64,000 nt of DNA from Rhizobium gallicum bv. gallicum R602sp (GTDB taxonomy: Bacteria > Pseudomonadota > Alphaproteobacteria > Rhizobiales > Rhizobiaceae). Position 1 is the stretch's first letter; each line of letters starts with the position of its first letter. Of this stretch, positions 5,366 to 27,467 are shown piece by piece. The DNA is taken from the NCBI RefSeq assembly GCF_000816845.1, contig NZ_CP006880.1, forward strand, positions 620,001-684,000. Reading direction: 5' to 3'. A program made the position numbers and the translations under genes. A model generated the notes under the pieces. That model saw nothing but the letters and a program-made list of their open reading frames with translations, was not told where the DNA came from and did not search any database.

Positions 5366-5851
5366 TCATCTGCTGGGATCGTCGTAAGCACTCAGCGGAA
5401 CCAATAGGCCTAACTTGACGTCCCTCAGCACTACATTCGTGTGCATGCGCCGGATCTGCGGGTTTTCTTTCATGATCAGGGCCGCGATGTCGTCATAATG
5501 CTCGACGTCGCGGGCCGTGATAATGGTAATCAAATCCACCGCTCCGGTAACGTAGTAAACTTGCTGGATGTGATCCTGCTTTTCCGCCCAAAGGCGGAAC
5601 TTCGCTAGCGCATCGTAGTTGTCACGCTCGATCTCCAATCCGGCGATGAACACCATCGGTGTGCCCGTCGCCTTGCGATCGACGACGGCTACTTCTGCCT
5701 TGATGATGCCGTCCTCGCGCAGGCGTTTCAGCCGCCTCTGCACCGCCGAGGTCGAAAGCCCGACCTTTTCGGCGATGGTTTCCGCCGTCAGCTGACAATT
5801 GCGCTGAATGATGTCGAGTATGTCGCGATCAAAGCCATCCAATCTTTCCAT
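5366..5851 (-). CDS. Lrp/AsnC-family transcriptional regulator
   Basis: A 161-residue DNA-binding regulator. The N-terminal winged helix (FDRDILDIIQRN, then VGLSTSAVQRRLKRL) is followed by the RAM/AsnC effector domain with YVTGAVDLITII and the closing NVVLRDVKLG. Lrp-family proteins form octamers that sense amino acids and often control a neighbouring transport or catabolic gene. It is divergent from the amino-acid ABC transporter at 6024-9077, which is its likely target. The ATG at 5851 lies after a very strong GGAGGAGG site; the longer open frame (to 5893) is not needed. Confidence 0.9.
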   Translation of the reverse strand: MERLDGFDRDILDIIQRNCQLTAETIAEKVGLSTSAVQRRLKRLREDGIIKAEVAVVDRKATGTPMVFIAGLEIERDNYDALAKFRLWAEKQDHIQQVYYVTGAVDLITIITARDVEHYDDIAALIMKENPQIRRMHTNVVLRDVKLGLLVPLSAYDDPSR

Positions 5852-15061: not shown

Positions 15062-15424
15062 AGCGTATTGGCGGTAATGAGCGCCCCCCGGTCGCGGATT
15101 TTGGCCGCTCTTTCCGCTTTTGACGAGTGCTTGGCTCCCCGCAAGCGATGCCTGCGCGCCGCCTCAGAAGTGCACGGCGTTGTCAGGCGATCGACGCGCA
15201 AGGTATAGGAACTGTGGCGCGCTGCCGTTGGCCGAGTGTCCTGAGGCGATAGCGCACGACGATTGTGGCCGCACTGAGCATGTGCTCCGAATCCAGACAG
15301 CAGGGGCGCCGGTTTACACCGTGTTTACCAACCTAAAGGCGAAAAATAGCCCTATATGATTAATTGACTTCGCCTTCTAGCTGTACGAATTATCCCGCGG
15401 GCTGGAAAACGGAGGGTGTTGCCA
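15062..15424. other. Intergenic gap
   Basis: No gene is supported in this 363-base stretch between the transpeptidase and the peroxidase. The last 100 bases are AT-richer than the surroundings and probably hold the peroxidase promoter, but no clear -35/-10 pair was found. Confidence 0.4.
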
Positions 15425-17206
15425 ATGGCAATCGTTTTTCAATCACACGGGGGTAGCGAGCAAAAGCGCACCGTTTCTATCTCAAGCCTTCGCGCCAGGC
15501 CGCCAGCGACAGGTGACGTCGCAGTCGACGAAGAGGCGGACTTCGGCTATTTCGTACCGCCACTGGATGCGCCCGAGAACTACTTGCCCAACACGGCGGA
15601 GACGGTTGGGGAACTCGATGAACTCGGCGCAATGTTGATCGATGTTGTCGCTACGCCGACGAGTGAAGATCCGACTGAAGATTCCACGCTCCCGCCGGTT
15701 CTCACATATTGGGGCCAATTCCTGGATCACGAGCTGACAGCCCGAACCGATCGCGAAGGGGCGATTTCGAGCATGGTCAACGCACACCCGCCTGTCGCCT
15801 CGTCGACAGTGGAGAGCCAGTTCAGGAACGCTCGCTCGCCCCGCTTCGATCTCGATAGTGTCTACGGCGGATCTGCCGTCGGCGACGGAATAGATGCAGA
15901 CGTTGTCAAAGTGATTTCTGGTCTTCGCCATCCCACGCTGAAAGACAAAATGCGTGTCGGAACAGCGATCGAACCGGGGCCGTTGCCCGACATGCTCGAC
16001 CAACATCGAGACCTGCCTCGGTATGGCCAGGTCCAGTCGTCTGTCCGGGAAGCGGCTTTACGTCTGGCTCAGGCGGCGATGACTCCTGAGGTGTTTCAGA
16101 AATTCTCTGATACGCTGCCCCAGCGCGCAATAATCGGCGATAATCGTAACGACGAAAATCTCGTCGTTGCGCAGTTCCATCTGAGCTTTCTTCGGTTCCA
16201 CAACAAGGCCATCGACTACCTTGCGTCGCACGACACGGGCTGGATCGCCGATTTCAGCTCAGCGCAGGCTCTAACCAGACTCCATTATCAGTGGCTGATC
16301 GTTGATGGATATCTCCAGGGCGTGTGCGACCCGGCTGTGGTAGACCGCATCGTCAACGATCGGGCATCTCATTTCTTCAAGTTCAGAGCCGAATTCGATG
16401 CCCGAAGGCAGAATACCCGACTTGGAAATGCCTTGCCGTTAGAATTCTCCGCGGCGGCTTATCGGTTCGGTCATTCCATGGTCAGAGCCTTTTATGACTA
16501 CAACAAGAACTTTGGGCGGCCGGGCACTGGTTTTCTACCGCGCGCCACCTTGCGGTTACTTTTCGAATTCACCGGCGGCGGCGGCAGGCTGGATGACGAG
16601 AAGAAGCTGCCCAAGAACTGGATAATCGACTGGGCGCGCTTTACAGGGGTCGATCCCCACGACGGGAGCGACGGCGAGCCGGCCCGTCTTGCCAGAAAGA
16701 TCGACACGGAACTCGCTCCGCCATTGCATACGATGTTCAAGGAAGGCGAAGACCAGGACGACCAACAGCTCAAGGCGTTGTTCAAGAACCTGGCAAGGCG
16801 GAACCTTCGTCGAGGCTACAATCTCCGGCTCCCGACGGGCCAGGCACTACACAAGCATCTCAAACAAATCGGCGCAGTGGAGTCCTCGCCGATCCAAGAT
16901 GTCTCAGCCCTGTTTACCACGAAGCCCGATTTGCAGAACTTCCTCGCCAGCACCGCGTCGCGCTTTCACGAACGCACACCGCTCTGGTTCTACATTCTGG
17001 CCGAAGCCGAGGCTGCAGGTGGAAACCGATTGGGCGAAGTTGGGAGCTGTCTCGTAGCCTTGACATTCGTGGGCGTGCTGCTTGCCGATCCCGACTCGGC
17101 CCTTTCGCGCGGGTTCACGCCCGATCAGAGCCCTCTCAAGATGCCGGACAACGCACCGATCGACTCGATCGCCAAGTGGATGCAGTTCGCCGCGGTTATG
17201 CAGTAG
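15425..17206 (+). CDS. Animal-type haem peroxidase family protein
   Basis: A 593-residue protein of the animal haem peroxidase superfamily (peroxidockerin/cyclooxygenase-like bacterial branch). The distal histidine is His102 in WGQFLDHELTA, and the proximal haem ligand is His350 in AYRFGHSMVRAFY. The intervening helices (FHLSFLRFHNKAIDYL) and the C-terminal ADPDSAL segment fit the family. No signal peptide is evident, so it is either cytoplasmic or exported by another route. The ATG at 15425 follows GGAGGG by eight bases. It stands alone. Likely activity is peroxide- or halide-linked oxidation, but the natural substrate is unknown. Confidence 0.88.
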   Translation: MAIVFQSHGGSEQKRTVSISSLRARPPATGDVAVDEEADFGYFVPPLDAPENYLPNTAETVGELDELGAMLIDVVATPTSEDPTEDSTLPPVLTYWGQFLDHELTARTDREGAISSMVNAHPPVASSTVESQFRNARSPRFDLDSVYGGSAVGDGIDADVVKVISGLRHPTLKDKMRVGTAIEPGPLPDMLDQHRDLPRYGQVQSSVREAALRLAQAAMTPEVFQKFSDTLPQRAIIGDNRNDENLVVAQFHLSFLRFHNKAIDYLASHDTGWIADFSSAQALTRLHYQWLIVDGYLQGVCDPAVVDRIVNDRASHFFKFRAEFDARRQNTRLGNALPLEFSAAAYRFGHSMVRAFYDYNKNFGRPGTGFLPRATLRLLFEFTGGGGRLDDEKKLPKNWIIDWARFTGVDPHDGSDGEPARLARKIDTELAPPLHTMFKEGEDQDDQQLKALFKNLARRNLRRGYNLRLPTGQALHKHLKQIGAVESSPIQDVSALFTTKPDLQNFLASTASRFHERTPLWFYILAEAEAAGGNRLGEVGSCLVALTFVGVLLADPDSALSRGFTPDQSPLKMPDNAPIDSIAKWMQFAAVMQ

Positions 17207-18557: not shown

Positions 18558-18704
18558 ATGAACGTGGCACGCTCTTTCAACAACTGGCGCAAGTTCCGCC
18601 AGACCGTTTCCGAACTTGGCCGGATGTCCAGCCGTGAATTGCAGGATCTCGGCATCGACCGCGCCGATATCCGTAGCATCGCCCGGGCATCGATCGCTCG
18701 CTGA
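18558..18704 (+). CDS. DUF1127 small protein
   Basis: A 48-residue basic protein with the DUF1127 (YjiS-like) core WRKFRQTVSELGRMSSRELQ followed by DLGIDRADI. Such proteins are short, positively charged and abundant in Rhizobiaceae; some bind RNA and affect phosphate and carbon metabolism. The ATG at 18558 follows GGGAAAGGGG. A terminator lies 32 bases past the stop, so it is a single-gene unit. Confidence 0.88.
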   Translation: MNVARSFNNWRKFRQTVSELGRMSSRELQDLGIDRADIRSIARASIAR

Positions 18705-18735: not shown

Positions 18736-18758
18736 ACGCCCGCTCATGCGGGCGTTTT
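18736..18758 (+). terminator. Terminator after the DUF1127 gene
   Basis: An eight-base stem (ACGCCCGC / GCGGGCGT) with loop TCAT is followed at once by TTTT, the pattern of an intrinsic terminator for the plus strand. Confidence 0.8.
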
Positions 18759-18920
18759 CGCGTCAATTTTTCATGTTTCCGTATTCTCTAGAGCTTTTGC
18801 CGTCGCGAGCCTGGCGGCTTCGTGTTTCTTGCATAGCTGCAGTGCAACATTAAGCCTGTCAACCGCCGAGCGATGGCATATGATCTCTCTCTCCGAAGCA
18901 ATTGCATGTCCTCCCGCAGA

Positions 18921-19046
18921 GCTTCGTGGTTCAGGCGGCCCCCTCCTCCTTCCAAGGGACGTCTATAGGAACGGCGGCACTCCTCCCAGTCGCTGTTCGC
19001 TTTTTTTGAGAAAGCCTGCCGCACCTCCTCCCGCGGCAGGCTTTTT
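18921..19046 (+). ncRNA. Alpha-r14 (NfeR1-like) trans-acting small RNA
   Basis: This gene-free stretch repeats a C-rich anti-Shine-Dalgarno word: CCCTCCTCC (near 18941), ACTCCTCCCA (18979-18988) and ACCTCCTCCC (19023-19032). Two of these sit in hairpin loops: arms AACGGCG (18970-18976) and CGCTGTT (18991-18997) enclose the middle copy, and arms AAAGCCTGCCGC and GCGGCAGGCTTT (19011-19044) enclose the last, followed by a T-run. That is the structure of the alpha-r14 family, best known from NfeR1 of Sinorhizobium meliloti, which pairs with ribosome-binding sites of ABC-transporter and other mRNAs. Start is estimated from the roughly 123-base family length; a further CCTCCC at 18909 may be upstream of it. 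It lies next to a sugar ABC operon. Confidence 0.78.
19011..19046 (+). terminator. Rho-independent terminator of the small RNA
   Basis: A perfect 12-base stem with a ten-base CCTCCTCCC-containing loop, followed by T residues. It ends the alpha-r14-like RNA. Confidence 0.85.
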
Positions 19047-19092
19047 CGTCTCTGGGCGCTGCTTGAGCATCACGTAGCGATGATAGTGCATG

Positions 19093-19120
19093 TGAATTAT
19101 AATTCATGAGATGAATTATA
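19093..19120. promoter_or_regulatory. Palindromic operator, probable SorC-regulator site
   Basis: A perfect 14-base palindrome TGAATTATAATTCA at 19093-19106 is followed by a third half-site TGAATTATA at 19112-19120, abutting the -35 box. The spacing suits a repressor that reaches the promoter. The operon encodes a SorC-family regulator (22892-23899), the most likely binder. Confidence 0.65.
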
Positions 19121-19148
19121 TTGACAGGTGCGGCGCATTGCGTATAGC
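19121..19148 (+). promoter_or_regulatory. Sigma-70 promoter of the sugar/polyol operon
   Basis: A consensus TTGACA at 19121-19126 and TATAGC at 19143-19148 are separated by 16 bases. Transcription would start near 19155, leaving a leader of about 100 bases. Confidence 0.65.
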
Positions 19149-19154
19149 TACCCC

Positions 19155-19228
19155 TACCGGACTTCGAGGAGGAAATCCGGTCATCACTGCGATCACCGGC
19201 GCCGGTCTGGCGCCCTTCGGGCTTTTTT
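19155..19228 (+). promoter_or_regulatory. Structured leader with attenuator-like hairpin
   Basis: The leader holds an ACCGGA/TCCGGT stem (19156-19161 with 19176-19181), a 12-base palindrome ACCGGCGCCGGT (19195-19206) that can compete for the same arm, and GCCC-TTC-GGGC followed by six T (19212-19228), an intrinsic terminator shape. It sits 30 bases before the first start codon. Alternative pairing of the first arms could decide whether the terminator forms. No riboswitch class is recognised. Confidence 0.5.
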
Positions 19229-19257
19229 GGGAGGGGCTATGGCCCCGAGGAGGACAC

Positions 19258-20286
19258 TTGCGCACTTTTTTCAGCACGACCGCGATGGCGGTCCTTGCGT
19301 CGACGCTCTTTGCCGGTTCCACGGCTGCCGAAACGGAGAACCCGTTCCGCTGCAAGCCGGGCGAAAAATACGTCATGAACGTCATGGTGTCGGGCGTGGA
19401 ATACTGGTTCCCTGTCTATGAAATGTTCAAGCAGGCCGGCCAGCAGCTCGGCTGTGAGACGGAATATACCGGCACGCCGGAATATGACGTCAACAAGCAG
19501 ATCGCCACATTCGACCAGGCGTTGGCACAGAACCCGGCCGGCATTCTCGTTCATCCGATGAATTCCGATCCCTTCATTGAGCCAATCAACCGCGCGGTCG
19601 ACCGAGGTACGGCGGTCGTCACGTTTGCGGCCGACTCGCCGCTTTCCAAGCGCGTCTCCTTCATCACCTCGGACAACACCCGCGAGGGCACCTATGCCGC
19701 CGACGCGATCGCCGAGAAGATGGGCGGCAAGGGTGAATATGCGGTTCTCGAAAATCCGGGCCAGGACAACCACGACAAGCGCATCGCCGCCTTCATAGCC
19801 CGTATGGAAGAGAAGTGGCCGGACATGAAGCTCGTCGGCCGCGCTGCTTCCAACCAGGACCCGACCAAGGCTTATCAGGGGCTTTCGAGCCTTATCCAGG
19901 CCAATCCGAATCTCGGCGCGGTCTTCATGCCCGAAGCCAACTCGGCGATCGGCGCCGCACAGGCAAACAAGGAAAGCGGGGGCAAGGTCCTCGTCATGTG
20001 CGCAGATGTCAACGCCAACATCCTCGATATGATCAAGGCCGGTGAAGTCTTCGGCTCGATCAATCCGAACCAGGGCATGCAGGGCTATATGGGCTTCATG
20101 CTGCTGTGGTTCGCAGAGCATCCGGAACTGATCGACCCGATGAACGACGCCAAGCGCTCCGGATTCAACCCAATGAGCATCCCGGTCGTCGATAACGGCC
20201 TGTCGATTGTGACGGCGAAAAACGCCGACGATTTCTACTGGGACAAGTACCTGAAGCGTCGCGGCACGAAGGGTATCGAGGAATGA
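19258..20286 (+). CDS. Sugar/polyol ABC transporter, periplasmic binding protein
   Basis: A 342-residue ribose-type (Peripl_BP_4) binding protein. The start is taken as TTG at 19258, seven bases after GGAGGA, since it begins directly at the signal peptide (TFFSTTAMAVLASTLFAGS, cut after TAA); a frame open further upstream crosses the promoter and leader. Mature motifs include NPAGILVHPMNSDP, FITSDNTREGTYAA and VFMPEANSAIGAA. It captures the substrate of the importer encoded next. The two cysteines at the N terminus of the mature protein and later (CKPG, GCET) may form a disulphide. The ligand is not known but should be the substrate of the downstream enzymes. Confidence 0.9.
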   Translation: MRTFFSTTAMAVLASTLFAGSTAAETENPFRCKPGEKYVMNVMVSGVEYWFPVYEMFKQAGQQLGCETEYTGTPEYDVNKQIATFDQALAQNPAGILVHPMNSDPFIEPINRAVDRGTAVVTFAADSPLSKRVSFITSDNTREGTYAADAIAEKMGGKGEYAVLENPGQDNHDKRIAAFIARMEEKWPDMKLVGRAASNQDPTKAYQGLSSLIQANPNLGAVFMPEANSAIGAAQANKESGGKVLVMCADVNANILDMIKAGEVFGSINPNQGMQGYMGFMLLWFAEHPELIDPMNDAKRSGFNPMSIPVVDNGLSIVTAKNADDFYWDKYLKRRGTKGIEE

Positions 20287-20298
20287 GCTTCTGAAAAT

Positions 20299-20330
20299 CG
20301 ACCATCCGCACCCTTCAGTGCGGATGGTCG
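20299..20330 (+). other. Intercistronic hairpin
   Basis: A perfect 12-base stem (CGACCATCCGCA / TGCGGATGGTCG) with an eight-base loop lies 12 bases past the binding-protein stop. Hairpins here often slow mRNA decay and keep binding-protein levels above those of the ATPase and permease. There is no T-run. Confidence 0.7.
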
Positions 20331-20351: not shown

Positions 20352-21878
<1,527 letters not shown>

Positions 21879-21900
21879 GGACAAAGTGGGAGAAACGGGA

Positions 21901-22890
21901 ATGGCAATCGACACCTTGGCGACAGGCGCGCCGAAGACAGCGTCCTTCAAACGCATTGGCACAATGCGCGAGGCGGGGCTGATCGCGATCATCCTCGCGC
22001 TGTGCGTGATCATGAGCGTTGCCTCGCCGCACTTCCTGACGCTTGGCAATTTCCGCGCCATGCTGATGAGCTTTTCCGTTGAAGGCATCGTCGTCGTGGG
22101 CATGACGATCCTGCTCATCGTCGGCGGCATCGACCTCGCGGTGGGCTCCGTGGTCTGCTTCGCGATGGTGCTCTCGGGCTCGCTCTTCCTCGCCGGGCTC
22201 GACCCGTGGACGGCCTCGCTCATCGGCATCCTCGCGAGCAGCACGATCGGTGGAATAATGGGCTTCTTTGTGACGGTCGTGGGTCTCAACCACTTCATCA
22301 CCTCGCTTGCGGCAATGGTGATCGTGCGAGGCCTTTGCCTCATCATCACAAAGGGCACGCCGCTCTCGCTCTTCACGCTGCCGGCGGGCTTCAAGGCGGT
22401 GGGGCAAGGCACGCTTTACGGCGTACCCTATGTCATCTTGATCTTCGTCGCCGTCGTCATCCTGTTCGATTTCCTGCTGCGCCGAGCCACCGCCTTCCGC
22501 AAAGTCTTCTATACGGGCAGCAACGAGAAGGCCGCGCTCTATTCCGGCATCAAGACCAATCAGGTGAAATTCTGGGTGACCGTGCTATGCTCGACGCTCG
22601 CCGGTGTCGCAGGGGTTATCTACATGTCCCGCTTCGGCGCAGCGACCCCCACCTTCGGCGTTGGCATGGAACTCAATATCATCGCTGCGGCGGTGATCGG
22701 CGGCGCCTCGCTCAACGGCGGCTCCGGCACGATACTCGGCGCCATCCTCGGCATCGCGCTTCTATCTGTCGTCACGAGCTCTCTGATCCTGCTCGATGTT
22801 TCAGTCTATTGGCAGGACATGATCAAGGGGTGCATTCTGCTCGCTGCCGTTTCCATCGACCATTTCCTGCACAAGCAGAAAGCCGCCTGA
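21901..22890 (+). CDS. Sugar/polyol ABC transporter, permease
   Basis: A 329-residue BPD_transp_2 permease (RbsC type), with eight or more hydrophobic spans and the conserved VGGIDLAVGSV near the third span and ALYSGIKTNQVKFWVTVL in the second half. It probably forms a homodimer. The start at 21901 follows GGGAGAAACGGGA; an alternative ATG at 21868 would overlap the ATPase gene by 11 bases. Confidence 0.92.
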   Translation: MAIDTLATGAPKTASFKRIGTMREAGLIAIILALCVIMSVASPHFLTLGNFRAMLMSFSVEGIVVVGMTILLIVGGIDLAVGSVVCFAMVLSGSLFLAGLDPWTASLIGILASSTIGGIMGFFVTVVGLNHFITSLAAMVIVRGLCLIITKGTPLSLFTLPAGFKAVGQGTLYGVPYVILIFVAVVILFDFLLRRATAFRKVFYTGSNEKAALYSGIKTNQVKFWVTVLCSTLAGVAGVIYMSRFGAATPTFGVGMELNIIAAAVIGGASLNGGSGTILGAILGIALLSVVTSSLILLDVSVYWQDMIKGCILLAAVSIDHFLHKQKAA

Positions 22891-22891
22891 C

Positions 22892-23899
22892 ATGCCAATT
22901 GCAAAATTGAAACCCAAGACGACAGTACCGCGCGAGGAGATTGTCATCGCCCGCCAGATGCACCAGGCGCTCGTCCTTCACTTTATGGAAGGCCTGACGC
23001 AGGCACAGATCGCCGGCCGGCTCGGCATCTCGCAAGCCACCGTCAACCGCCTCATCAAACGCGGCCGTCAGCTCGGCCTCGTCGAGATCAAGATCAAGTC
23101 CCCGGTCGAGCCGCTGGTCGACATGGAGGAGCGGCTTCTGGCACTCGGCGGCATCAGCCGCGCGATCGTGGTCCCGACCGTCTCCGACAATCCGCAGACC
23201 GCGCTCCAGGCAGTCGGGGAGGCGGCCGCTCGCCTCCTGATGGAGGAGCTCGACGACGGCGACACAATCTGCATCACTGGCGGCAAAGGGGTGAGCGCCG
23301 TCGTCGCCGGTATGCAGCCACCGCGCCGTTTTGATGTCGAGGTCATTCCGGCAACGGGCTGCGTCCAGGGCAAGCACTATACCGACGTCAACCACGTTTC
23401 GACCCTGATGGCCGACCGGCTCGGGGGGCGGTCCTACCAGATCCACGCGCCCCTCTTCGCCGACGATGCCGAGCAGCGGGCGATGCTGATCAACATGCGC
23501 TCTGTCGCCGACGTCTTCAAACGGGCGCGCGAGGCAAAGGTGGCGGTGGTCGGCATCGGCTCGATCCTAACGGACGACTCCAGCTATTACGACCTGCATC
23601 CCTCCTCGAGTACTGATCGGGTGGCGATCGAGCGCTCGGGCGCAAGTTGCGAATTGCTTGCCCACCTGCTCGATGACCAGGGCCGGGTCTGCGACTACAG
23701 CCTCAATCGTTCCCTGGTGTCGCTTACCCTGGCGGAATTCGCCTCGATCCCGATGAAGATCGGCGTCGCCAGCGGCCCGAACAAGGCGGGCCCGATCCTC
23801 AGCGTCCTGCGCGGCAACCATCTCGACACGCTTGTCACCGACGAGGCGACCGGGGCACGCATTCTTGAAATTGCATCCAAGGAAGGGGTTTCGGCATGA
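22892..23899 (+). CDS. SorC-family transcriptional regulator
   Basis: A 335-residue regulator with an N-terminal helix-turn-helix (QAQIAGRLGISQATVNRLIK, about residues 38-57) and a C-terminal sugar-binding domain of the SorC/DeoR-effector type (MRSVADVFKRA, VVGIGSILTDDSSYYD, GVASGPNKA). Family members bind a phosphorylated sugar. It begins one base after the permease stop, so it is in the operon, and probably regulates it through the palindrome at 19093-19106. EryD of erythritol operons is in the same family, which agrees with the EryA/EryB-like enzymes downstream. Confidence 0.9.
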   Translation: MPIAKLKPKTTVPREEIVIARQMHQALVLHFMEGLTQAQIAGRLGISQATVNRLIKRGRQLGLVEIKIKSPVEPLVDMEERLLALGGISRAIVVPTVSDNPQTALQAVGEAAARLLMEELDDGDTICITGGKGVSAVVAGMQPPRRFDVEVIPATGCVQGKHYTDVNHVSTLMADRLGGRSYQIHAPLFADDAEQRAMLINMRSVADVFKRAREAKVAVVGIGSILTDDSSYYDLHPSSSTDRVAIERSGASCELLAHLLDDQGRVCDYSLNRSLVSLTLAEFASIPMKIGVASGPNKAGPILSVLRGNHLDTLVTDEATGARILEIASKEGVSA

Positions 23900-24891
23900 G
23901 CGGCGAACAACTGATCCGCGAGATCGGGCGCTCCGGCGTCAAGGCGTCGGCCGTCGGGCTCGGCACCTGGGCGATCGGCGGTTGGATGTGGGGGGGAACC
24001 GACGAGGCGCAGTCCATCGCCGCCATTCAGGCCTCGCTGGAGGCCGGCGTAACCCTGATCGATACAGCGCCCGCCTACGGGCTCGGCCGCTCGGAGGAAA
24101 TCGTCGGCAAGGCGCTTGCCGGCCGGCGTGATAAGGCCGTGATCGCCACGAAATGTGGCCTCGTCTGGCACACGCAGAAGGGCAATCACTTCTTCGACCA
24201 GGACGGCAGGCCGGTTCACCGCTATCTCGGCGGGGACTCGATCGTCCATGAAGTGGAGGATAGCCTGCGCCGGCTCGGCACGGACTATATCGACCTCTAC
24301 ATCACCCATTGGCAGGACGTGACGACGCCGGTCGAGGAGACCGTCGCGGCGCTTCAGGAACTGCAGCGGGCCGGCAAGATCCGCGCCATCGGTGCCAGTA
24401 ATGTCAAACGGTCCGTGCTTGAGCAGTACATAGCCACTGGCTCGCTTGACGCGATCCAGGAGCGGTACAGCATGATCGATCGAGAGATCGAGGCGGACCT
24501 TTTGCCGCTCAGCGTTGCAAACGGCGTATCGACGCTCAGCTATTCCTCGTTGGCGCTCGGGCTGCTTTCGGGCAGCATCGGGCCGAACCGGATCTTCTCC
24601 GGCGATGATCAGCGCAAGGACAATGCGCGCTTTTCCGTCGCCAACCGGCAGAAGGCCCGCGATTTCTCCGACGCGATCCGGCCCGTCGCGGAGCGTCACG
24701 ATGCGAGCATCGCCCAGACGGTGATCGCCTGGACACTGGCGCAGCCTGGTGTGACCTTTGCCCTTTGCGGCGCGCGCAATCCGGCACAGGCACTCGACAA
24801 TGCCCGGGCCGGCACGCTTCGGCTGTCTCCGGAAGATCACGCGGCCATCGACGCCGCCCTATCGGAAAAGCTGGCCAACATCGACGGATAA
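23896..24891 (+). CDS. Aldo/keto reductase
   Basis: A 331-residue NAD(P)H-dependent reductase/dehydrogenase that interconverts an aldehyde or ketone and an alcohol. The catalytic tetrad is visible as DTAPAYGLGRSE (Asp, Tyr), ATKCGL (Lys) and YITHWQD (His). IGASNVKRSVLEQY and ALCGARNPAQ form the cofactor site. Its ATG overlaps the regulator stop (ATGA), indicating translational coupling. It probably oxidises or reduces the imported polyol or sugar. Confidence 0.9.
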   Translation: MSGEQLIREIGRSGVKASAVGLGTWAIGGWMWGGTDEAQSIAAIQASLEAGVTLIDTAPAYGLGRSEEIVGKALAGRRDKAVIATKCGLVWHTQKGNHFFDQDGRPVHRYLGGDSIVHEVEDSLRRLGTDYIDLYITHWQDVTTPVEETVAALQELQRAGKIRAIGASNVKRSVLEQYIATGSLDAIQERYSMIDREIEADLLPLSVANGVSTLSYSSLALGLLSGSIGPNRIFSGDDQRKDNARFSVANRQKARDFSDAIRPVAERHDASIAQTVIAWTLAQPGVTFALCGARNPAQALDNARAGTLRLSPEDHAAIDAALSEKLANIDG

Positions 24892-24900
24892 CGGATTGTC

Positions 24901-26652
24901 ATGATGAACCGCGAACAGACATTGGACGGGCTTCGCCGAAGCCCGAAGGTCGACGTGTGCGTCCTTGGCGGCGGCATCAACGGTCTCAGCGTGTTCCGCG
25001 AGCTGGCGCTGCAGGGCGTCAACGTGCTCATCGTGGAAAAGGGCGACTATTGCTCCGGGGCCAGCGCTGGGCTCTCGCGCATGGTGCATGGCGGTCTGCG
25101 CTACCTGGAAAACGGCGAGTTCAACCTCGTGCAGGAATCGCTTGTCGAGCGCGACCGGTTGCTGCGCAATGCCCCTCACTATGTCGCCCCGCTGCCGACC
25201 ATGGTGCCGATCTTCGATATCTTTTCCGGGCTGGCAAACGGCATCGTGCGTTTTCTTGGGCTCACCCGTCGGCCGAGCCGCCGCGGCACCGTCGCCATCA
25301 AGGCTGGACTGAGCATCTACGACTTCCTGACGCGCAAGCGCGCCCTGATGCCGCGCCATCAGTTCCGTGGTCGCAAAAGCACGCTTTCGAAATGGCCGGG
25401 GCTCAATCCGGCGATCCGCAACTCCGCCACCTATTATGATGCCTGGGTCAGTCACCCGGAGCGCATCGGCATTGAGCTCCTGCGTGATGGGCTCTCGGCC
25501 GGCCCGAGCGCTGGGGCCCTGAACTATGCGACGATCGAGCATGCGCCGGCTGGGGAATTTCGGCTGCACGACGGCATTTCGGGCGAAACCTTGGCAATCA
25601 AGCCGTCACTGGTCGTCAACGCGACCGGCGGCTGGATTGACATCGCCAATGGCGCGCTCTTTCCTGAGGCAGCTCGTCCCGCGCCGCTGATCGGCGGCAC
25701 GAAGGGCTCGCACCTCATCATCGACCATGCGGGGCTTCGCGACATGCTCGATGGTCACATGATCTATTACGAGAACGAGGACGGGCGCATCTGCATCCTC
25801 TTTCCTTATCTCGGCAAGGTGCTTGTCGGCTCGACGGATATCCGCGTGGACGACCCCGCAACGGTGCGCTGCGAGGCCGACGAGCGGGACTATATCCTGC
25901 AATCGCTCGCCTTCGTATTGCCCGGTGTCCGCATCCGCCCGGAAGAGATCGTCTTCCAGTTCGCAGGCGTGCGCCCGCTGCCGGCAAGCAATGACAGCTT
26001 CACCGGCCGCATCCCCCGTGACCATTATTGCACCGTTCTCGAAGGCCGCGACGGTGGTCCACCAGTGCTCTGCATGATCGGCGGCAAGTGGACGACCTTT
26101 CGTTCCTTCGGCGAACTCGCCGCCGATATGGCGTTGGAACGGCTTGACCGGAGCCGCCGCCTCGACACGGCGGACCGCACTTTCGGCGGCGGACGGGCAT
26201 TTCCGATAGACCGTAGCGGCTGGATTCGGGACTTGTCGGAATCGACAGGCCTTTCCCTCGATCGCGCCGCAACGCTGTTCGAGCGCTATGGCACGGATGC
26301 CAAGGCCGTTGCCCGCTTCGCCGCCGCGGGGCCGGACAACCTCTTGCCTCATGCCGGCTACAGCGCCCGGGAGCTCCTGCATCTCATCCGTACGGAGGCG
26401 GTCGAGCATCTGGACGATCTGCTCCTCCGGCGCACGACACTTGCCATCACCGGCGAGCTTTCCCTCGACATGGCCGAGATCGCGCTCGACCTCCTCGCCG
26501 ACGACAAAGGCTGGCCAGTGCAGCGCAAGGACGAAGAGCGCACCCGTTTTCTCACCCTCATGCGCGAGCGCCACGGCGTCGCGGAGGCAACCCTTTCCGC
26601 AAGGAACAAACAAAGGAGTGAACCATGCGAGACAACCGCAAGATCCGGATGA
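24901..26652 (+). CDS. GlpD/EryB-like FAD-dependent dehydrogenase, second copy
   Basis: A 583-residue paralogue of the protein at 1354-3075. The FAD motif is CVLGGGINGLSVFREL; the family segment is LSRMVHGGLRYLENGEF. HMIYYENEDGRICILFPYLG matches the first copy almost position for position (HMIYFEADDGRICLVYNYLG). The C-terminal helical domain is present. It probably oxidises a polyol phosphate or sugar phosphate made by the kinase at 27498-29027. Two ATG codons (24901, 24904) are possible starts. It overlaps the next gene by 28 bases. Confidence 0.9.
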   Translation: MMNREQTLDGLRRSPKVDVCVLGGGINGLSVFRELALQGVNVLIVEKGDYCSGASAGLSRMVHGGLRYLENGEFNLVQESLVERDRLLRNAPHYVAPLPTMVPIFDIFSGLANGIVRFLGLTRRPSRRGTVAIKAGLSIYDFLTRKRALMPRHQFRGRKSTLSKWPGLNPAIRNSATYYDAWVSHPERIGIELLRDGLSAGPSAGALNYATIEHAPAGEFRLHDGISGETLAIKPSLVVNATGGWIDIANGALFPEAARPAPLIGGTKGSHLIIDHAGLRDMLDGHMIYYENEDGRICILFPYLGKVLVGSTDIRVDDPATVRCEADERDYILQSLAFVLPGVRIRPEEIVFQFAGVRPLPASNDSFTGRIPRDHYCTVLEGRDGGPPVLCMIGGKWTTFRSFGELAADMALERLDRSRRLDTADRTFGGGRAFPIDRSGWIRDLSESTGLSLDRAATLFERYGTDAKAVARFAAAGPDNLLPHAGYSARELLHLIRTEAVEHLDDLLLRRTTLAITGELSLDMAEIALDLLADDKGWPVQRKDEERTRFLTLMRERHGVAEATLSARNKQRSEPCETTARSG

Positions 26653-27467
26653 ATCGGCTGTTCGGCAACGGCCGTTGCCTGGACGTGGCGATCGATCACG
26701 GCGTATGCAACGAACCGTCCTTCCTCGATGGACTGGAGAACATGCCGGCCATCGTGAAGGCGCTCGTCGATGCGAAGCCGGATGCGATCCAGATGAACTA
26801 CGGCCAAGCCGACCTGCTGCAGGATATATCCGGCAAGGAGAAGCCGGCGCTCGTCATGCGCATCGACATGGGCAACCCCTATAACCGGATCCGCCATCGC
26901 GACATGTGGGCGGTGTTGCAGAACGAGGCGGAGCCGCTGATCGGCGCGTTGCAGATGGATGCCGCCTGCGTAGTAGTCAACCTCTTCATGCTGCCGGACG
27001 AGCCGGATCTCTTCCGCCAGTGCGTGCAGAACATTTCTCGCGTACGGGCAGACTGCGAAAAGTACGGCGTGCCGCTGATGATCGAGCCGCTCGTCATGCA
27101 GCCAGTCACCGAACGCGGCGGCTACATGGTCGATGGCGATGCCGACAAGATCGTCACGCTGACGCGGCTTGCCCGCGAGATGGGCGCGGACATAGTCAAG
27201 GCGGATCCGACGGCGAATGCGGAAGACTTTCACCGCGTGGTCGAGGCTGCGCGCTGCCCGGTTCTGGTGCGCGGCGGCGGCAAGGAAGACCTGCGCGCTG
27301 TGTTCGCCAAGTCCGCGGCCTTGATGCGGCAAGGCGCGGTGGGCATGGTCTATGGGCGCAACATCTACCAACATGCCAATCCGAGCGCCGTCGTGCGCGG
27401 GCTCATGGCGATCGTGCACGACGATGCGAGCAGCGAGGACGCCTTCGCGCTCTATCAGCAGGGATGA
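26625..27467 (+). CDS. DeoC/LacD-family class I aldolase
   Basis: A 280-residue TIM-barrel aldolase of the DeoC/FbaB/LacD superfamily, expected to cleave a ketose phosphate by a Schiff base. The N-terminal AIDHGVCNEPSFLDG is the family start of the DhnA/LsrF branch. A lysine suitable for the Schiff base is Lys192 in GADIVKADPT, and the phosphate site appears as VRGGGKEDLR plus VGMVYGRNIYQH. The ATG at 26625 follows AAAGGAGTG and lies inside the end of the dehydrogenase gene. It would supply the carbon-carbon cleavage step of the pathway; its products are inferred to be triose phosphate or a short aldehyde. Confidence 0.85.
   Translation: MRDNRKIRMNRLFGNGRCLDVAIDHGVCNEPSFLDGLENMPAIVKALVDAKPDAIQMNYGQADLLQDISGKEKPALVMRIDMGNPYNRIRHRDMWAVLQNEAEPLIGALQMDAACVVVNLFMLPDEPDLFRQCVQNISRVRADCEKYGVPLMIEPLVMQPVTERGGYMVDGDADKIVTLTRLAREMGADIVKADPTANAEDFHRVVEAARCPVLVRGGGKEDLRAVFAKSAALMRQGAVGMVYGRNIYQHANPSAVVRGLMAIVHDDASSEDAFALYQQG

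Follow-up and report, generated by a model that had tools for sequence, protein, structure and literature searches.

Conserved hairpin element in the leader of a rhizobial sugar ABC operon, a probable receiver for ar14-type and other anti-Shine-Dalgarno small RNAs

There is good support, from covariation and from conservation beyond neutral expectation, for a conserved RNA element in the leader of a sugar ABC operon of Rhizobium gallicum, and this leader is probably a multi-site receiver for small RNAs (sRNAs) that carry anti-Shine-Dalgarno (anti-SD) words and act in trans. Upstream of it, at 18890-19046 of the window (the whole 64,000-nt stretch analysed here, to which all coordinates refer), lies what is, judged by its sequence, a further copy of the known ar14 family, which adds little alone; the leader is the more important of the two. 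Our main reading, to which we give a probability of about 0.6, is that a four-hairpin ar14 sRNA would act in trans and that the neighbouring operon is a plausible target by way of the conserved receiver in its leader. The operon is plausible in this role because three parts of such a receiver stand at the start of its mRNA, namely a GAGGAG loop on a 5' hairpin, the box GGGAGG and the SD sequence GAGGAGGA.

The first leader hairpin, H1 (19156-19181, on the + strand like all elements of the leader), carries the loop CGAGGAGG at 19165-19172. This loop is found in 80 of 81 sequences (the window and 80 loci); in the one exception, L058, the loop is UGAGGAGA and a U-A pair takes the place of C-G at its base, and GAGGAG is present in the H1 loop of all 81. 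H1 is followed by a variable hairpin H2 (19198-19214), a G-rich box at 19228-19236 (GGGAGG; GGGAGGGG, TGGGAGGGG or UGGGAGGGG), a third hairpin H3 (19233-19246) and the SD box (19247-19254), which reads GAGGAGGA in 66 of the 81 sequences. Structure statistics were calculated from 72 distinct rows after nine duplicates had been dropped; among these the SD is GAGGAGGA in 58 and AAGGAGGA in 11. The H1-H2-H3 structure is paired in 89.5% of cells. Seven of the nine pairs of H1 covary; one of the nine, formed by columns 8 and 21, is open in 33 of the 72 rows. H2 is paired in 81.4% of cells with double changes at four of its six pairs, and H3 in 100% of cells with a double change at none of its five. 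Both sides have changed in 59 cells of the leader; shuffles gave 13.2, none of 500 reaching 59, and partners slid by 1-3 gave 14-23. RNAalifold recovered most of H1 and H3 and missed H2.

Mean pairwise identity is 0.993 in the H1 loop, 0.944 in H3 with its 5' flank and 0.949 in the SD box; it is 0.565-0.597 in the linkers and H2, and 0.624 at the fourfold degenerate sites of the gene, as computed from the 67 of 72 coding sequences that were usable. Only three of 958 eight-base windows of the coding sequence reach 98% identity. The window leader as a whole folds no better than shuffles (z = 0.43; 128 of 200 were as good), and H1 is present in its minimum free energy (MFE) and centroid structures alike. 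The H1 stem of S. meliloti 1021 contains mismatches. At the gathering score no Rfam family matched the leader at 19156-19260, and when 18780-19320 was searched at E values up to 5 no match overlapped it. Word searches of the open-access full-text literature, a range outside which most subscription journals lie, returned no recognisable description of the leader.

Other explanations of the leader were tried and rejected. Against a transcription attenuator, the terminator-like hairpin at 19204-19223 of the window leader is not retained, and in many relatives no T-run follows H2. A leader peptide behind the H1 loop would require a start codon, and none is consistently placed in the relatives. A DNA operator behind the H1 repeat is unlikely, since the loop is fixed while the stem covaries.

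Transcription of the operon probably begins at a promoter TTGACA-16-TATAGC (19121-19148, + strand), which was recognised by eye and is absent from the list of the promoter scan; its TTGACA recurs in relatives. The palindrome TGAATTATAATTCA at 19093-19106 is probably an operator for the SorC-type regulator of the operon, as its sequence and similar palindromes in relatives suggest. AT-rich palindromes, either TGAATTATAATTCA or TGAAATATATTTCA, precede the probable promoter in many relatives, and similar words also stand before more distant homologues. The genes, all on the + strand, encode a substrate-binding protein with a TTG start (19258-20286; Pfam Peripla_BP_4), a sugar ABC ATPase (20352-21878; ABC_tran), an ABC permease whose true start is perhaps further in (21868-22890; BPD_transp_2), a SorC/DeoR-type sugar regulator (22892-23899; Sugar-bind) and an aldo-keto reductase (23896-24891; Aldo_ket_red). 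Between the genes for the substrate-binding protein and the ATPase, at 20300-20329, is a GC-rich hairpin (GACCATCCGCAC/GTGCGGATGGTC) that is probably mRNA-stabilising and intercistronic; it recurs with altered sequence in the same gap of many relatives, and L015, L018, L028 and L035 are among the loci with other sequence next in that gap. Past the aldo-keto reductase, 24955-27467 encodes a FAD-dependent glycerophosphate-oxidase-like protein and a DeoC/LacD-type aldolase, hinting that the same cluster may serve sugar or polyol breakdown. A protein with an animal-haem-peroxidase domain (PF03098) is encoded upstream of the locus, at 15416-17206. The S. meliloti orthologue lies on pSymB at 525804-526829; it may be SMb20442 or belong to SupABCD (SMb20484-20487).

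An earlier note on this DNA had described an ar14-type sRNA with anti-SD words repeated in its hairpin loops, and both observations hold. The Rfam ar14 model (RF02344) covers 18927-19048 on the + strand with 88.1 bits (cmscan, E = 1.4e-14), far above its cut-off of 58.8 bits, and in the predicted fold of 18890-19046 each of the four CUCC-type words falls within a hairpin loop, that of the terminator in the case of the last. The words, which are of the CCUCCUCCC type and unpaired, are TCCTCCC at 18909, CCCCCTCCTCCTTCC at 18939, CTCCTCCC at 18980 and CCTCCTCCC at 19024; the exact nonamer CCTCCTCCC occurs only once on the + strand of the window, in the terminator loop. Four separated TCCTCC clusters within 160 nt are the maximum for both strands of the 64 kb, and the next independent groups on either strand have two each. 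The fold has an MFE of -59.9 kcal/mol (z = -2.97), equalled in stability by one of 200 dinucleotide shuffles. The Rfam match, the fold and the word scan agree on three hairpins of the + strand: 18933-18964 (loop CTCCTCC, 18943-18949), 18969-18998 (loop CTCCTCCC, 18980-18987) and the terminator hairpin 19008-19045 (loop CCTCCTCCC, 19024-19032). At laxer limits CcsR1 (RF02791) scores 28.8 and 17 bits in the same place, which is below its cut-off of 65.3 and does not make the RNA a member, and ar7 scores 21.4 bits against a cut-off of 60.

The fold adds a further 5' hairpin beyond the ar14 model (18894-18926, + strand), with TCCTCCC at 18909-18915 in its loop. A transcript of about 125 nt had been expected; instead a promoter-like site, CTGTCA-17-TATGAT (18856-18884, + strand; nine of 12 matches in a consensus scan), which starts 71 nt upstream of the model start, suggests a 5' end near 18890 and hence a transcript of about 157 nt, probably with four hairpins. 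Forms with two, three or four such hairpins have been published (PMC3927594). An inverted repeat TTGCA-N9-TGCAA at 18829-18847 (+ strand), possibly a regulator site, is identical in the three sequences of the clade that were compared (the window and two R. mongolense records), and the promoter-like site, the hairpins (the additional one included) and the terminator are likewise retained in all three. In the window copy one loop has CTCCTCCTTCC where its two closest relatives have CTCCTCCTCCC, and a second loop is shorter by three bases; by this comparison the copy is somewhat eroded, with two loop words affected. The genome contains five ar14 copies above the cut-off, of which the window copy has the lowest score, and two further weak ones. 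The nfeR1 promoter is reported to contain an LsrB-type TGCA-N6-GCAT box (PMC10746234). The window copy has no such box in the 130 nt that precede its match to the ar14 model. Among the five copies above the cut-off it was found only at C1:464029, so the window copy is an ar14 paralogue rather than nfeR1 itself.

On the same strand, 223 nt upstream of the sRNA, lies a small gene for a DUF1127 protein (18558-18704; PF06568, 53.9 bits, cut-off 23.3). A DUF1127 gene beside a 'cuckoo' RNA, one with anti-SD loops like ar14, has been called a 'CIN1 locus' (PMC10253847), and the arrangement seen here is of that type. A DUF1127 match lies within 1 kb of two of the five ar14 copies above the cut-off, once in the opposite order. 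The DUF1127 gene is followed by a terminator-like hairpin (18736-18759, + strand), read from the sequence as an 8-bp inverted repeat and TTTT, for which the scan gave overlapping variants. This hairpin and the promoter-like site stand between the DUF1127 gene and ar14, which would speak against co-transcription and processing from one precursor.

The earlier note named the adjacent operon, whose AGGAGGA site could pair with the loops, as a candidate target. Of the 389 confirmed loci that encode a close relative of the substrate-binding protein, 80 were compared. Only two of these 80 have CCTCCTCC in the 1.5 kb upstream of the operon (L008 and L009, both R. mongolense), and three more (L023, L052 and L086) have a lone CTCCTCC; for four loci (L039, L064, L068 and L077) less than 1.5 kb of upstream sequence was available. 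The whole stretch of DUF1127 gene, ar14 and leader is present in at least four plasmid records (two of R. gallicum, R. sp. CC1099 and R. sp. 007), and most other rows among the 40 of 640 records listed cover about 67% of the stretch, at its DUF1127-ar14 end. It seems from these comparisons that the sRNA and the operon were brought together within one small clade, and their adjacency looks incidental. Targeting by adjacency is unsupported, given that two of 80 operon relatives and at least four plasmid records share the arrangement. Nor would adjacency be the reason for targeting, because the leader with its complementary boxes is kept in relatives that have no neighbouring ar14.

The operon is nevertheless a tenable candidate on other grounds. 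The AGGAGGA reported before the TTG start at 19258 is indeed there, and in duplex predictions the start region of the substrate-binding protein gene ranks third among 46 window ORFs (-11.3), with the ATPase start of the same operon second (-12.0); first place goes to a minus-strand ORF at 5851, and four of the 46 reach -9.8. The comparison set consisted of greedy ORFs of at least 150 amino acids, some of which are surely not genes. Since strong SDs pair with any anti-SD word, pairing energies alone single out no target, and the predicted rank is a sign of candidacy, not of action. With accessibility included, the strongest predicted ar14 site in the leader is the G-rich box at 19228-19236 (-11.4 kcal/mol), followed by the SD region, where the extra 5' hairpin scores -9.5 and the others -8.1, and by the H1 hexaloop (-8.0, of which the cost of opening is 0.2). 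The SD, which had been put forward as the pairing site, is complementary as claimed; it is not the sole site, as the H1 loop at 19165-19172 and the box at 19228-19236 are equally prominent.

In S. meliloti, NfeR1 is reported to silence SMc03121, SMb20442 and ntrB by pairing at the translation start, its targets being ABC transporter mRNAs and ntrB, and its anti-SD motifs are described as redundant in action (PMC10746234, PMC8844928). By analogy, an ar14 loop would pair with the G-rich ribosome-binding region of the mRNA and block translation. First contact might be made loop to loop at the exposed H1 hairpin, with occupation of the SD as the final step. Each ar14 copy in the genome could serve as the partner, and so could AbcR.

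A covariance model of the leader, R1, was built for genome searches. It found one leader in its own genome, 13 strong and two weak matches (21-24 bits) in 61 relatives, matches in 54 of 394 genomes and 16 of 109 genera of a family sample, one per genome, and in eight of 397 genomes of an order sample. Seven of these eight belong to its own family, and the eighth match (G866, 30 bits) is not at the locus of that genome's related gene. R1 undercounts, having missed three genomes of another family (f16; L222-L224) with the leader loop CGGGAGG. Three diverged genera of its own family (g75, g97 and g128) have CGGGAGG or CGGAGG as the loop and AAGGGAGGA as the SD; in a fourth, g108, represented by one genome, the loop is CGGGAGG and the SD still GAGGAGGA. 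Among 11 low-scoring loci (L161-L163, L165-L172) a pattern search revealed the leader in eight, and L167, L169 and L171 gave no match or an unrelated one.

All 18 leader-bearing genomes tested contain ar14 above the cut-off. This co-occurrence says little, because an ar14 match is present in all 148 genomes of the genus examined, whether or not they have the leader. A related substrate-binding protein (E up to 1e-100) is encoded in 26 of 397 genomes of the order, 19 of them outside the leader's own family, and 18 of these 19 upstream regions were examined for hairpins whose loop contains GGAGG or GAGGAG (L240, which begins inside the gene, was omitted, and L234 seems to have been given a wrong start). 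Such a hairpin was present in five of five where ar14 is above the cut-off (f16 and f44), in two of three of f41 (ar14 E of 3e-10 to 9e-10), in one of four with weak ar14 (E of 1e-5 to 3e-4; L237, equalled by 5 of 100 shuffles) and in one of six with no ar14 match (L232, which 4 of 100 shuffles equalled and a separate scan missed). The association is a hint only, being post hoc and small and counting close relatives repeatedly. In L233 (G762, f41), where the protein is 54% identical, a hairpin CGGCA-TTCGGAGGAAAT-TGCCG precedes the gene by about 100 nt, and on this sequence the element may be older or may have arisen again. We also compared leader loops with ar14 words between genera in 40 fetched regions, which are part of each genome's matches. 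Genera with a CGGGAGG loop tend towards the shorter ar14 word ACCUCCUCCC, which does not discriminate, as each of the two loop words has a six- or seven-base match to each of the two sRNA words. In G472 the leader loop CGGGAGGAAG (L165) and the ar14 word CTTCCTCCCG (L179) are perfectly complementary over ten bases, a match noted by eye and without a control.

A rather unlikely alternative is that the partner of the leader is the AbcR1/2 pair, or some other anti-SD sRNA, and that the adjoining ar14 gene has no special role. AbcR1/2 are reported to carry the anti-SD words aSD1 (CUCCUCCC) and aSD2 (UUCCCCUC), to silence many transporter mRNAs, of which SMc03121 is shared with NfeR1, and to target two sites in the prbA leader (PMC8844928). 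The restriction of the ar14-operon adjacency to one clade also fits this alternative. All three G-rich words of the leader (H1 loop, GGGAGG box and SD) are as complementary to CUCCUCCC as to the ar14 loops, so that AbcR and ar14 are equally compatible with them and nothing tells the two apart. The match between three or four ar14 loops and three G-rich leader boxes would fit many-site contact, which speaks for ar14 and is only suggestive.

In another reading, improbable in our view, the ar14 paralogue of the window is decaying and almost silent within its DUF1127 (CIN1) locus, the operon being served by other copies or by none. Its score and eroded loop words would fit, as would the presence of the nfeR1-type box in only one of five copies, that at C1:464029, and the many plasmid records with the DUF1127-ar14 order and no ABC operon; in S. 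meliloti, moreover, a Northern blot reportedly detected one of six copies (PMC7143759). Against decay stands the retention in all three clade sequences of the promoter-like site, the upstream inverted repeat, the hairpins and the terminator.

We likewise doubt that ribosomes use the H1 loop as a further, SD-like contact, whether standby site or decoy, with no sRNA to receive: the loop is close to the probable 5' end, and GAGGAGG, GGGAGG and GGAGG would pair with the 16S tail with at most one wobble, but it is more conserved than the real SD and fixed in a covarying stem, it is followed by no consistently placed start codon, and in the small post hoc sample the hairpin tracks the presence of ar14.

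Returning to the leader as a receiver, we tentatively put forward, as a proposal that we would not back at even odds, that it is an undescribed once-per-genome element of the Rhizobiaceae and their neighbours: a 5' kissing-loop receptor whose GAGGAG/GGGAGG loop, GGGAGG box and SD would form a three-site docking platform for ar14 or AbcR. The mRNA would then be a privileged target or, under sugar induction, a sponge that draws sRNAs away from other transporter mRNAs. PMC12559287 discusses sponge RNAs, among them some that originate from transporter mRNAs. Were the leader such a receptor, it would be a natural target with a pairing site in a hairpin of its own, apart from the SD, and pairing could therefore be altered without destroying translation. 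For several AbcR targets, changes in the target site are noted to harm the SD as well (PMC8844928); this usual obstacle in work on anti-SD sRNAs would be removed, and the selection of one mRNA among many with good SDs would become testable.

Of the known systems, the CcsR/CIN1 locus of Rhodobacter (the DUF1127 gene ccaF1 and the CcsR RNAs) resembles the locus described here in the DUF1127 gene beside an RNA with anti-SD loops. In Rhodobacter ccaF1 and CcsR are reported to be co-transcribed (PMC10253847), whereas here a terminator-like hairpin separates the gene from the sRNA, and the window RNA stays below the CcsR1 cut-off. AbcR1/2 are similar in having CUCCUCCC in a loop, transporter mRNAs as targets and two sites in the prbA leader (PMC8844928); they differ from ar14 in family and structure. 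The closest likeness is to ar14/NfeR1 itself (RF02344; SmelC397 and models of the SmelA075/SmelA099 type), with which the window copy shares a score above the cut-off, anti-SD words in every loop, a word in the terminator loop and several copies per genome, and from which it is set apart by the predicted extra 5' hairpin, two eroded loops and the lack of a TGCA-N6-GCAT box. For the proposed contact between an sRNA loop and the H1 loop there is a resemblance, and only a resemblance, to the OxyS-fhlA kissing complex, in which loop-loop contacts are reportedly made both at the SD and away from it, by another sRNA, in another host and with other sequences.
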